Of a stretch of DNA of 64,000 nucleotides, positions 33,140 to 41,545 are shown piece after piece. The stretch spans positions 2,666,001 through 2,730,000 of the forward strand of contig NZ_CP018091.1 in NCBI RefSeq assembly GCF_001885215.1. Direction: 5' to 3'. The translations under genes were made by a program, and so were the position numbers. How positions within the stretch are numbered: the stretch's first letter is position 1; every line of letters begins with the position of its first letter. This stretch comes from Synechococcus sp. SynAce01 (GTDB lineage: Bacteria; Cyanobacteriota; Cyanobacteriia; PCC-6307; Cyanobiaceae). Under the pieces are notes generated by a model. It was not told the DNA's origin and made no database searches. It was given only the letters and a program-made list of their open reading frames with translations.

Positions 33140-33922
33140 TTGACTGCCGAGGATCCCCCGTCACCACTTCTGGGGCCGCCACAGAAATCAGAATCCACCA
33201 ACCCCCGGCCCCAAGAGAGTGCCTGGGCCTTCTGGCGCAGTGTGGTGTTCACCCTGGCGCTGGCCCTTGGGATCCGCCATTTCCTGATTGAAGCCCGCTT
33301 CATTCCATCCGGCTCGATGTTGCCGGGGCTTCAGATCCAAGACCGGCTGCTGGTCGAGAAGATCAGCTATCGCGGCCGCAACCCTGAGCGCGGAGAAATT
33401 GTGGTGTTCAATTCACCATTCCATTTCGATCCTGCCCTCAGGGTGGATCACCAGGCAGGCCCGCTGCGCTGCCTGCTGGTGAACCTGCCGCTGCTGGGCT
33501 CGATCCCGGGCATCCAGTCGCCCGCCTGTGACGCCTACATCAAACGGGTCGTGGCCATTGCCGGCGACCGCGTGACAGTCAATCCCCAGGGGCAGGTCTG
33601 GCTCAACGGTCAGCCGCTGAGCGAACCCTATGTTCAGAATTTCTGCCAAACCGATGAACAGGGGATCGGACCCTGCCGCAGTCTGAACACAGTGGTCCCC
33701 CTGGGCCATGTGCTGGCCTTGGGGGACAACCGCGCCAATAGCTGGGATGGCCGTTTCTGGCCCGGGGGTGCCTTTCTGCCTGAGAAGGAAATCATCGGCA
33801 GGGCCTTCTTCCGGTTCTGGCCGCTCGACCGCACCGGTGAGCTTGGTGAAGGCGATGGGCTTACCCCGCCAGCCCCCGCCAAAGTTCCGGCAGCAACCCC
33901 GTCGCCAGCACCTGCCCCGTAA
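33140..33922 (+). CDS. lepB: Signal peptidase I
   Basis: 260 aa membrane-anchored serine peptidase that releases exported proteins. The N-terminal helix (WRSVVFTLALALGIRHFLI) is followed by the catalytic serine in FIPSGSMLPGL, the catalytic lysine in YIKRVVAIAGDRV, and box E LALGDNRANSWDGRFWP. The start is TTG at 33140. The C-terminal 25 residues are a Pro/Ala-rich tail whose DNA overlaps the convergent dihydroorotase-like gene by 62 bases. Confidence 0.94.
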   Translation: MTAEDPPSPLLGPPQKSESTNPRPQESAWAFWRSVVFTLALALGIRHFLIEARFIPSGSMLPGLQIQDRLLVEKISYRGRNPERGEIVVFNSPFHFDPALRVDHQAGPLRCLLVNLPLLGSIPGIQSPACDAYIKRVVAIAGDRVTVNPQGQVWLNGQPLSEPYVQNFCQTDEQGIGPCRSLNTVVPLGHVLALGDNRANSWDGRFWPGGAFLPEKEIIGRAFFRFWPLDRTGELGEGDGLTPPAPAKVPAATPSPAPAP

Positions 33923-35129
33923 GCGACTGGTCAGCAAACGGCTGATTGGCAGCCAGGGATCCATGGATGTCGGAGGCCGGCTGCCAGACCTGGCCGGGGT
34001 CGAACAGCAGCCAACGCTGGTCGCCGATCGCCAACGACTCCTCAGCCAACCCCAGGTAGCGGGCAGGGCCCCAACAGAGGGCGTCCCAAAGCGCCTCCAC
34101 CGTCCAGCCGTGGCCTACCACCAGCTCCTGCCAGAGAGACGGCAGGACGTGGCGATGGCCGGCAAGACCTGGACGACGCTGATCGATCGGCAGCAGCCGT
34201 TCTTCGGCGTCGAGGGGAAGGTGATGGACTGCCACAGCGCTGAGCACCCCATCGGCCAGCCCGGCCACCAGGGCTCTGCGGTCAGCAGGCCCGCCGAGGG
34301 AGGGGGTCAGTCGCCAACCCTCGGCGCTGGGATCAAGCCGGCCACTGTCGGCCACCAGATGCCACCAGCAGACACTGGCCGGCAGCGTGCCGTTGCCAGC
34401 GCGCAGCAGGGCAACGCCAGCGGCCGTGGAGAGGTTGCACAGGCGGAGTTCCTGGCCGCTGAGGGTTTGGCTCAGGGCCAATACGCTCTGCAGGGGCAGG
34501 GTTTCGCTGATTGTTGGATCGGGCGGCCAGCCGGCCCTGAGGGCTTCGACCCCCTCGCGCACGAAACCTTCCATGGCCAGCGCAGGGTCGCGCGGAGCGA
34601 GCAACACCGGTCGCCCCGCCGCTTCGCCCAGCCGTAATCCACGTTCAACCAGGGCCAAAGGGGGCAACTGGTCGTCGTCGGCCAGGCCGATCGCGCCTGC
34701 GGCGATCAGTTCGGCGTGGGGGGCCAGGTCAAGGCCGGAGCCACCGAGGCTGAAGCCGCCCCAGAGCGGCAACTGAAACGGCGGTGGACAGCGCAGCTGC
34801 AGCCGCTCGGGCCGGTCCCGCCAGCTGCGGCTGCGCGGCAGCAGTGCCACGGTGCCGTAACCCGCAGCCGAGGCTGAGTGCACCAGGCTCTCGAGGGTTT
34901 CGGCCGTGCCGTCCTCGGGCCGCTCCAACAGGCTGTGTGGATCCACCAGGGCCGGAGCCAACAGCCAATCAAGGGCAGGACGTGGGGCCAAGCCCAGGGC
35001 TTCGGCTGCGGCCACAGCCCCCGGCCCAAGGGCCTGCAGCCGTCCGTTCTCCAGGAGCACATCCTCGTGGCGCAAGCGATGGCCTGGACCCTCCAGAAAG
35101 CGGACGCCCTGAAGAAAACAGGCCGTCAT
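33861..35129 (-). CDS. Dihydroorotase-like protein lacking metal ligands
   Basis: 422 aa amidohydrolase-fold protein of the PyrC/dihydroorotase class by overall pattern. The metal motif D-x-H-x-H is DPHSLLE, so the second His is Leu and the substrate Arg is Glu. The HxSTA block reads NLSTA, and the usual DHAP block reads HHLP. Without ligands it is unlikely to hydrolyse dihydroorotate and may be a non-catalytic partner like known pseudo-dihydroorotases. The start ATG shares a base with the upstream stop (TGATG at 35127-35131 on the minus strand). Confidence 0.78.
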   Translation of the reverse strand: MTACFLQGVRFLEGPGHRLRHEDVLLENGRLQALGPGAVAAAEALGLAPRPALDWLLAPALVDPHSLLERPEDGTAETLESLVHSASAAGYGTVALLPRSRSWRDRPERLQLRCPPPFQLPLWGGFSLGGSGLDLAPHAELIAAGAIGLADDDQLPPLALVERGLRLGEAAGRPVLLAPRDPALAMEGFVREGVEALRAGWPPDPTISETLPLQSVLALSQTLSGQELRLCNLSTAAGVALLRAGNGTLPASVCWWHLVADSGRLDPSAEGWRLTPSLGGPADRRALVAGLADGVLSAVAVHHLPLDAEERLLPIDQRRPGLAGHRHVLPSLWQELVVGHGWTVEALWDALCWGPARYLGLAEESLAIGDQRWLLFDPGQVWQPASDIHGSLAANQPFADQSLTGQVLATGLLPELWRGLAG

Positions 35130-36493
35130 CAGAGCGCCCCGGCTGCGGTCTGATCGAGCACACCGCCGAGATGGGTGGTCAGATTCAGGCAGGTCACCAC
35201 CGGCTGCCGCTGGCCAAACGGGCCGCTCTCCTCGCCAGATGGCAGGGGCGCCGGGTAGTCGATCACGCTGACCCCGCCGTTGCCCTGCTTGACCATCCAG
35301 ATCGCCGCTGGGCCGAGGCCAAGGAGGTCGCAGAGGATCGTTTTATTGACGGCATCATGGGCAACGACCAAGGCCGTTTCATCGGCATCGAGGCCAGCGG
35401 CGATTCGCCCGAAGCTGGCGACGGATCGGTGCCAGACATCCTGAAGCGTTTCACCCTCGGGCATCTGCACCGTGTGGGGCGCGAGCTTCCAGGAGTTCAG
35501 CAACTCGGGCCAACCCGCCTGGATCTCGGCTTCCAGTTGCCCTTCCCAAAGGCCATGGCCAATTTCCACCAGTCCCTTCAGGCAGGTGAGCGGGATGTCG
35601 GAGCGCCCGGCCAGGATGCATTCGGCGGTCTGACGGGGGCGGGCCATTGAACTGGCGTAGGCGCGCTGGATCGGCACAGCGGCCAGGCAGCGGCCAGCCG
35701 CCTCCGCCTGGACAAAACCTTGGCTATTGAGCGGAATATCGATCTGGCCCTGGAAGCGGCCCTGGCGATTCCATTCGGTCTCGCCGTGGCGCACCAGCAG
35801 CAACCGCGGACCAGGACCCTTGACTGGCAACGCCGGGCCGAGATGGGCCGTGCTGTTCAGTGATTCAATCTGCAGCTCGGGAGTGCCGCCAGCAGCGGCG
35901 CTCAGATTCAGGACCGAAAGGGAGCAGTTATCGATCCGTAAGCGCTGAAAGCAGCTGGCAGGCAACCCCAACAGGTTCAGCAACAGGCACCGCAAGATGG
36001 CGCTGTGGGCCACAACGAGAACGGTTTGATCAGCGGCGCCGGGGGGATGGAGCCGCTTTAACTTCTCCAGCCACTGGCCTGCCTGAAGCATCAGTTCGGC
36101 GATCGGCCGATAGGGGCTGCCGTCGTGGCGCCTGAGCTCAAGCTGGTCAGGGGCCTGGAGCCAGAGCCGATAGGACTCAGGAAAACGTTGTTTGAGTTCG
36201 CTGCTCAGCAGGCCGGTCCAGGGTTCGAAGTCCACCTCAAGCAGGCCCTCCTCGAGCTGGGCGCTGAGGCCGCCAGCCTGGGCGCCCAGCAGCAGGGCCG
36301 CCGTATCCCGGGCCCGGCTGAGTGGGGAGCTGTAGGCCGCCGTGATGGTCAGGGGCTTCAGCGCCGCGCCTGTGACCAAGGCCTGCTCCCGGCCCTGGTC
36401 GCTCAATGACGACAGATCGTCACGGCCCTGCACCCGGCGTTCAAGGTTGAAGCTGCTCAGTCCATGGCGGACCAGCAGGAGCCTGAGGGGCAC
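35129..36493 (-). CDS. Tandem histidine phosphatase (phosphoglycerate mutase-like)
   Basis: 454 aa with two complete histidine phosphatase domains. Domain 1 (residues 1-210): LLLVRHGLSSFN, SSPLSRARDTA, VVAHSAILR. Domain 2 (residues 235-440): LLLVRHGETEWNRQG, SSMARPRQTA, VVAHDAVNK. The RHG histidines are present in both. Substrates are unknown; such proteins are often annotated GpmB. The GTG at 36493 was chosen because the RHG motif starts five residues later. It is probably coupled to the dihydroorotase-like gene. Confidence 0.87.
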   Translation of the reverse strand: MPLRLLLVRHGLSSFNLERRVQGRDDLSSLSDQGREQALVTGAALKPLTITAAYSSPLSRARDTAALLLGAQAGGLSAQLEEGLLEVDFEPWTGLLSSELKQRFPESYRLWLQAPDQLELRRHDGSPYRPIAELMLQAGQWLEKLKRLHPPGAADQTVLVVAHSAILRCLLLNLLGLPASCFQRLRIDNCSLSVLNLSAAAGGTPELQIESLNSTAHLGPALPVKGPGPRLLLVRHGETEWNRQGRFQGQIDIPLNSQGFVQAEAAGRCLAAVPIQRAYASSMARPRQTAECILAGRSDIPLTCLKGLVEIGHGLWEGQLEAEIQAGWPELLNSWKLAPHTVQMPEGETLQDVWHRSVASFGRIAAGLDADETALVVAHDAVNKTILCDLLGLGPAAIWMVKQGNGGVSVIDYPAPLPSGEESGPFGQRQPVVTCLNLTTHLGGVLDQTAAGAL

Positions 36494-40300: not shown

Positions 40301-40363
40301 TCACCCGGGAGATGGCCCAGCGCCAACCTGGTTAAGTTGAAGTCTCGACAGACGCTTCGCTCC

Positions 40364-41545
40364 ATGGCCAACTTGCTTGATCAACTCGCCGGGATGACCG
40401 TGGTGGTCGCCGACACCGGCGAACTCGAAGCCATCAAGCAATTCACTCCCCAGGACGCGACCACCAACCCGTCCCTGATACTGGCGGCAGCCCAGATCCC
40501 CCTCTATCAGGGGTTGATCGACAGCTCCTTGAAGGCTTCACGGGACCTGCTGGGCCCCGATGCTCCAGCTGAGATGGTGGTGCTTGAAGCCCTCGACGAA
40601 ATCTGCGTCAATTTCGGCAAGGAAATTCTGCAGATCGTGCCTGGGCGGGTCTCCACCGAAGTGGACGCCAGGCTCAGTTATGACACCGCTGCCTCCATCA
40701 CCAAGGCGCGCAAACTGATCGCTCTCTATCACGAGGCCGGCATCAGCAAGGATCGTGTCCTGATCAAGATCGCCTCCACCTGGGAGGGCATCAAGGCTGC
40801 AGAGCAGCTTGAGCTCGAAGGGATTCACTGCAATCTCACCCTCCTGTTCAGCTTCACCCAGGCCGTGGCCTGCGCTGAGGCCAAAGTCACCCTGATCTCC
40901 CCCTTTGTGGGGCGCATCCTCGATTGGTACAAAAACGACACCGGACGTGATCACTACCCCGGGCCTGAAGATCCTGGCGTGATCTCGGTGACCCAGATCT
41001 TCAATTACTTCAAGACCCACGGCTACAAAACCGAAGTGATGGGGGCCAGTTTTCGTAATACCGAGGAAATTGTCGAACTCGCCGGCTGCGACCTGCTCAC
41101 CATCTCCCCCAAACTGCTTGACCAGTTGCGCCAGCAGCAAGGGGAACTGAAGCGCCGGCTGAATCCTTTCGATCCCGGCCCAACGGAACCCCGTTTCACG
41201 CTCAAGGCCTCCGATTTCGAGCAGCGCATGGCCGCGGACCGCATGGCCCACGAAAAACTCGATGAGGGCATTCGCGGCTTCAGCAAGGCCATCGAAACCC
41301 TCGAAGCCCAGCTGGCCCATCGCCTCGGTGAGCTGGAGGGTGAAGCGGCCTTCGCCCATGCCGCCCAGGAGATTTTTCTGCTCAACGATTTCGATGGTGA
41401 TGGTTGCATCACCCGCGAAGAATGGCTGGGCAGCGATGCGGTCTTCGATGCCCTCGACACCGACCACGACGGCCGTCTTGCTCCTGAAGACGTGCGCGGT
41501 GGCCTGGGTGCGCCGTTGGCGGTTTCCGCCGCTGCCAGCAGCTAA
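40364..41545 (+). CDS. tal: Transaldolase with C-terminal EF-hand pair
   Basis: 393 aa. Residues 1-320 are transaldolase of the TalB type ([11 protein letters not shown], and the Schiff-base lysine in [12 protein letters not shown]), working in the pentose phosphate and Calvin cycle exchange of C3 units. The extra C-terminal ~70 residues hold two EF-hand calcium loops, [13 protein letters not shown] and [12 protein letters not shown], with complete acidic ligand patterns. Transaldolase-EF-hand fusions occur in cyanobacteria; the calcium effect is unproven here. ATG at 40364. Confidence 0.95.

Follow-up and report, generated by a model that had tools for sequence, protein, structure and literature searches.

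The window considered here is a stretch of 64,000 nucleotides from the cyanobacterium Synechococcus sp. SynAce01 (contig NZ_CP018091.1, positions 2,666,001 to 2,730,000 of the forward strand), and its gene at 33861..35129 on the reverse strand encodes a protein of 422 residues of the PRK07369 family, curated as 'dihydroorotase'. The open reading frame (ORF), the NCBIfam match, an AlphaFold2 model and an alignment together identify this protein as a genuine, conserved pseudo-dihydroorotase (pDHO) with a misleading database name. We regard it as a candidate non-catalytic subunit of aspartate transcarbamoylase (ATCase, PyrB), comparable to the PyrC' of proteobacteria and uncoupled from pyrB, with a probability of about 0.5.

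In the mechanism that we propose, a class I dihydroorotase would have lost its metal centre and been retained as a non-catalytic subunit. The pDHO dimer would bridge or stabilise the PyrB trimers, as proteobacterial PyrC' does, and this binding would support the assembly or the control of ATCase. The next reaction would be carried out by a separate dihydroorotase, the class II PyrC in this genome and PRK07575 or a class II enzyme in its relatives. We infer the inactivity of pDHO, its binding to PyrB and the effect of the binding.

Fold and Reaction Centre

The ORF is uninterrupted, and the predicted structure has a full-length class I dihydroorotase fold, made of a TIM (triosephosphate isomerase) barrel plus a composite domain. 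Based on a 51-row alignment, the AlphaFold2 model reached a predicted local distance difference test score (pLDDT) of 93.6 and a predicted template modelling score (pTM) of 0.93. Foldseek matched the model to the dihydroorotase of Bacillus anthracis with a template modelling score of 0.85-0.86, and the VIA comparison gave, over the whole length, Z scores of 47.2 to Thermus 2z00 and 45.7 to Aquifex 3d6n_A. No Pfam family was found for the protein at E<=1. In NCBIfam it matches PRK07369 at 272.7 bits over residues 3-410, which lies below the curated cut-off of 456, and after that the general class I dihydroorotase models. The cut-off is passed by two pDHOs from outside the window's family that are also without the ligands (L066, 612.1 bits; L021, 675.8 bits).

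The positions of pDHO were aligned to the numbering of the Aquifex dihydroorotase, whose ligands are given, in the part of the structural report used here, as His61, His63 and Asp153 for the alpha-site and His180 and His232 for the beta-site (PMC3880350). The set that we required of a catalytic class I dihydroorotase consisted of these five residues and Asp305. Two of the six are kept in the window's protein, His61 as H65 and Asp153 as D151 (34677..34679; all of these positions lie on the reverse strand), and the other four are replaced. The motif DPHSLLERP (residues 63-71, 34917..34943) carries the kept H65 together with L67 in place of His63 and E69 in place of the substrate residue Arg65. 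A178 (34596..34598) stands for His180, and N232, the first residue of NLST (232-235, 34425..34436), stands for His232. In HHLPL (302-306, 34212..34226), H302 replaces Asp305 and L306 the substrate residue His309. Two further substrate residues have also been replaced, Asn95 by R99 and Asn278 by T275. The equivalent of D151 is retained in 15 of the 36 compared members of the window's family.

The Aquifex aeolicus protein (3d6n, 4bjh), which represents the class A1 ATC-DHO type (aspartate transcarbamoylase with dihydroorotase), is a close structural match, with 408 residues aligned at a root-mean-square deviation of 3.2 Å, but it is catalytic with His61, His63 and Asp153, whereas pDHO is without four of the six ligands. 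Judged from the aligned residues, the metal centre of the window's protein is broken and dihydroorotase catalysis is very unlikely, although a metal could perhaps still be bound by H65 and H302, which the window's family conserves.

An earlier note on this DNA had stated that all recognisable ligand positions are changed, which is right for four of the six and wrong for H65 and D151. Its other statements, that the full length is retained and that the protein is maintained for something other than classic catalysis, agree with the ORF, the fold and the signature of purifying selection. Compared with the nearest relative, which is 94% identical, the nonsynonymous and synonymous divergences (dN/dS) are 0.031/0.28, a ratio of about 0.11; the protein is therefore kept for something.

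Two Ligand Styles across the Class

The comparison was made on a sample of 292 genomes from the phylum. Of these, 139 belong to the window's class: 36 in the window's own family and 103 in others. The family was placed with Synechococcus, Cyanobium and Prochlorococcus via named records, and the class names used here are inferred from these. PRK07369 was matched in 183 of the 292 genomes and in 129 of the 139 of the class, namely 26 of the 36 in the window's family and all 103 of the others; one of the latter matches (G066) covers profile positions 4-306 only. The equivalents of the beta-site residues His180 and His232 are kept in none of 92 class members checked (67 sampled and 25 named loci). 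The ligand losses recur at the same places in all 92, which is more than chance. Proteins related to pDHO from other classes of the phylum (families f31 and f38 together) kept all ligands in 12/12 genomes checked. Since the curated name is attached to proteins without the catalytic centre in 92/92 cases, pathway models of cyanobacteria that count pDHO as PyrC are probably wrong.

The replacements come in two styles. Outside the window's family, Tyr stands for His61 and Gly or Ser for Arg65 in 27/27 sequences, and Arg for His232 in 25/27, with His63 (20/27), Asp153 (25/27) and Asp305 (25/27) often kept. Within the family, compared on 36 sequences with the diverged L062 left out, the His at position 61 (H65) is present in all 36, Asn232 in 34 and His302 in 33. 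Such fixed, non-random replacements are what one would expect if the old active site had been remade into a pocket with a different ligand or reaction, pDHO then being a sensor or a new enzyme with no connection to PyrB, and the tests for a link to PyrB described below (rate residuals, PyrB tree and gene distance) were negative or weak. As a set, however, the 14 pocket positions show no more conservation than randomly drawn ones, whichever group is taken (670 and 850 of 5000 random draws were as high); the conservation of the pocket in the ligand-complete relatives was matched by none of 5000 draws. The residues found at these places also differ from one group to the other, which makes one shared new chemistry unlikely. 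We consider a rebuilt pocket rather unlikely.

Other Dihydroorotases in the Genomes

The earlier note had proposed a search for a second, intact pyrC, and one was found: the window's genome encodes a class II PyrC elsewhere (446.5 bits), whose ligands are invariant in 40/40 sequences compared. Class II PyrC is present in all 36 genomes of the window's family and in 21 of the 103 others in the class. PRK07575, another class I dihydroorotase, is found in 82 of these 103 and in none of the 36. It has Gln for His61 in 19/19 sequences (row L212, in fact the end of a pDHO, was not counted) and retains five of the compared positions; its competence is only presumed because of the Gln. Taken together, 136 of the 139 class genomes have either class II PyrC or a PRK07575 gene without breaks.

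The three other genomes all carry pDHO and show no other intact dihydroorotase. Profile searches found neither class II PyrC nor PRK07575 in G131 and G245, and the sole other dihydroorotase found in G185 is a PRK07575 gene interrupted by three in-frame stops. They raise the question of whether pDHO could still work as a dihydroorotase through a metal site that is partial or has been rebuilt. The ligands often kept outside the window's family favor such an enzyme, as do two reports, each used here in part: a Pseudomonas PyrC paralog without the conserved zinc residues is described as active (PMC2770081), and the Aquifex dihydroorotase as functional with one metal (PMC3880350). Against it, His61 and/or His63 are replaced together with Arg65, His180, His232 and His309, the window's protein has lost Asp305 as well, and nearly the whole class (the 136 genomes above) has another dihydroorotase. 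A surviving dihydroorotase activity therefore strikes us as highly improbable.

The PRK07575 genes of G197 and G251, like that of G185, carry stops or lie in pieces. These two are the genomes that have class II PyrC together with a broken PRK07575, and it looks as though PyrC is replacing PRK07575 there, apparently in progress.

Relation to Proteobacterial PyrC' and to pyrB

A non-catalytic ATCase subunit is the best single explanation of pDHO, because the ligand-less proteobacterial relatives directly follow pyrB in 4/4 cases and come out in our trees as the branch next to pDHO. The pDHOs of the class make up a single, fully supported branch in our trees. In a tree of 57 rows, which excludes distant paralogs, L062 and L127 and in which long ORFs were trimmed, this cyanobacterial branch joins four ligand-less proteobacterial proteins with a support of 94/85. 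With the long branch of Acinetobacter also removed and pDHO thinned to 18 rows (43 rows in total), it joins the three remaining ones with 97/86. An earlier tree of 64 rows, without the proteobacterial PyrC', had left the pDHO clade unplaced among the ligand-complete proteins of the phylum.

Six named reference bacteria, taken from 60 listed of 184 plasmid-search records, were fetched, and pyrB directly precedes the relative in all six; the four proteobacterial relatives are without ligands and the two actinobacterial ones have them. In f31, which belongs to another class of the phylum, no more than about 60 bases separate the gene from the pyrB ahead of it in 11/11 genomes with both places listed. 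Ten f31 loci were fetched and agree, all but one (G160) chosen after the places were known. The f31 protein is a full-length homologue of pDHO from the same NCBIfam family, but its ligands are all intact. In f38, pyrB and the ligand-complete relative lie on different contigs in 5/5 genomes.

The closest known counterpart is the PyrC' of class A2 ATCase, found in Pseudomonas and, as PyrX (smc01361), in Sinorhizobium meliloti. According to the parts of the respective papers on which we draw, PyrB in P. aeruginosa assembles into active trimers, within a dodecamer, only with the help of an inactive pDHO dimer, on which ATCase assembly and activity thus depend (PMC7053772), and disruption of the pseudo-dihydroorotase beside pyrB in S. 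meliloti leads to pyrimidine auxotrophy (PMC5929573). PyrC' and the cyanobacterial pDHO share the full-length, ligand-less class I fold and the company of another, intact PyrC in the same genome, and in our trees they come out as nearest branches, a placement that may be an artefact of fast branches. They differ in that the cyanobacterial gene is not beside pyrB and often stands beside a double histidine phosphatase, in the residues that replace the ligands, and in the absence of pDHO from ten genomes that keep pyrB. A more distant likeness is the fungal CAD-like protein, which is described in a portion of the P. aeruginosa paper (PMC7053772) as containing an inactive, ligand-less dihydroorotase domain retained beside ATCase. 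That domain is fused into one long chain, and the likeness is one of description, not of sequence.

Two observations in the cyanobacteria lend some weight to an ATCase subunit. The PRK07575 gene lies 0.8-1.9 kilobases (kb) downstream of pDHO on the same strand in nine genomes of six families (broken in two), which we counted in its favor; in the four of these nine loci examined, a reverse lepB lies in between. In 44 matched genomes, the window's family is set apart by an excess divergence (ratio of between-group to within-group) that is alike for PyrB (2.46) and pDHO (2.42), a weak support; the phosphatase has 2.16 and lepB 1.90, the lepB value with three outside genomes only.

It is equally necessary to set out what speaks against an ATCase subunit. 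A union of pDHO with the ligand-complete f31 and f38 proteins of its own phylum was not rejected (approximately unbiased test, p-AU 0.32), and the grouping with PyrC' may be an attraction of fast branches. In the PyrB tree, cyanobacterial PyrB is sister to the f38 PyrB of its own phylum (100/99), and uniting it with proteobacterial PyrB gave a p-AU of 0.031. The PyrB tree thus disagrees with that of pDHO, and the two are not shown to have travelled as a pair. In the window, pyrB is not among the neighbours of pDHO. In 97 listed class genomes from other families, the two genes share a contig in 46, with a nearest start-to-start distance of 19.9 kb; in four, from two genera, they are within 40 kb of each other, against 0.9 expected. 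The ten small-genome relatives without pDHO retain PyrB. Lastly, the rate residuals of pDHO and PyrB in 25 genomes of the window's family have a correlation of 0.02 (213 of 500 permutations were as high), or -0.22 when G217 is omitted. The pointer of the earlier note to pseudo-dihydroorotases that stabilise ATCase elsewhere fares best by homology, through the proteobacterial relatives behind pyrB and on the adjacent branch.

With these points in mind, we consider it less likely than not, though by no means remote, that pDHO is no ATCase subunit at all but an ancient, class-wide cyanobacterial pseudoenzyme with a function of its own, a dihydroorotase-derived scaffold or metabolite sensor. Such a protein would first have been freed from pyrB and paired with the phosphatase. 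The Synechococcus/Cyanobium/Prochlorococcus family would then have altered it further, and those genomes that are streamlined the most could do without it.

Should pDHO be an ATCase subunit, cyanobacteria would depend for the first control of their pyrimidine synthesis on a protein that has gone unrecognised, and this would also account for the persistence of such complexes in the absence of an operon. Otherwise, standard laboratory strains carry a long-kept pseudoenzyme of unassigned role. A literature search found no paper on a cyanobacterial pseudo-dihydroorotase, though an earlier mention is possible. As far as that search shows, pDHO would be a cyanobacteria-wide variant of PyrC' and not a new kind of system.

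The PyrB of the window's genome scores 160 bits to the Aquifex protein and 167 to that of B. subtilis, and the PyrB model matches all 139 genomes of the class at E<=1e-30. Outside the window's family the match is 1e-94 or better, except in G060, G062, G068, G101, G167 and G278, where it is weak (E about 1e-67 to 1e-69); in these six the model may have hit a different transcarbamylase, or else pyrB is perhaps split, interrupted or overlooked.

Divergence and Natural Loss

The pDHO branch of the window's family is long, at 1.47-1.62 changes per column, and the end branch of one very diverged copy (L062, in G217) is longer still, at 1.75. G217 is the only genome of group g2 in the sample with pDHO. 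Ten other genomes of this group, of about 1.6-1.7 megabases, have none, and the copy in G217 appears as if it were decaying ahead of the same loss. In all ten, the phosphatase adjoins lepB with nothing recognisable between them. These natural losses beside an untouched phosphatase offer a ready comparison.

Among 168 PyrB positions otherwise conserved in the family, 26 differ in six genomes that have lost pDHO. G217 has pDHO and yet departs at 18 of the 26 as well, and as far as the alignment goes the differences are not distinguishable from fast evolution. The correlation of rate residuals reached 0.80 for pbp and PyrB and 0.55 for CAAX and pDHO. The covariation is dominated by rate class, and it is therefore weak evidence either way.

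The Tandem Histidine Phosphatase

The gene directly upstream of pDHO (35129..36493, reverse strand) encodes a tandem histidine phosphatase of 454 residues when read from a GTG, with a start further upstream also possible. Both RHG motifs and the second histidines are present, and Pfam finds His_Phos_1 in two stretches (322 bits). In an alignment of 85 sequences, 12 of them cut at the N terminus, the RHG motif and the second His are retained in both domains. The stop of the phosphatase and the start of pDHO have one A in common in TGATG (35127..35131, reverse strand), an overlap that the earlier note had reported correctly and that recurs in 9 of 25 named relatives.

This arrangement has suggested that pDHO could be a partner or regulator of the phosphatase in an ancient two-gene operon, its fold serving as a scaffold or ligand sensor. 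The synteny is indeed better than that with pyrB: besides the overlap, the phosphatase is directly upstream on the same strand in all 26 pDHO-bearing genomes of the window's family, in 25/25 named loci, and in 55 of the 103 other genomes of the class, from 17 families. However, the two genes are not adjacent in the remaining 48, and the proposal fails on the pattern of loss. The phosphatase occurs in 139/139 genomes of the class (at E<=1e-20 the other 153 gave no match), including the ten without pDHO, where its place next to lepB is unchanged and its conserved C-terminal GAL is also present. The rate residuals of the two proteins correlate at 0.20 (51 of 500 permutations were as high, or 25 of 500 without G217). 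A fold of the fused pair (889 residues) reached a pTM of 0.57, with confident halves, a joint at a pLDDT of about 34, no confident interface and no sign of a fixed contact, a result that is weak because only six paired rows were available. The stress that the earlier note had laid on the phosphatase is thus not upheld, and we find such a partnership improbable.

The GAL tail of the phosphatase takes few forms in the 85 sequences: AAGAL in 64, ASGAL in 11, AQGAL in 6, ATGAL in 3 and TAGAL in 1.

Other Features of the Window and the Loci

At its other end, pDHO overlaps by 62 bases (33861..33922) with the 3' end of a convergent ORF on the forward strand (33140-33922), which we take to be lepB, signal-peptidase-like. 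Ten proteins from five loci that flank pDHO on the side away from the phosphatase had no common theme. Apparent fusions of pDHO, seen as ORFs of 500-707 residues, were rejected, since they were judged by eye to be out-of-frame read-through of the upstream gene. Further along the window, an ORF at 40337-41545, presumably transaldolase-like, has two EF-hand-like loops near its C terminus.

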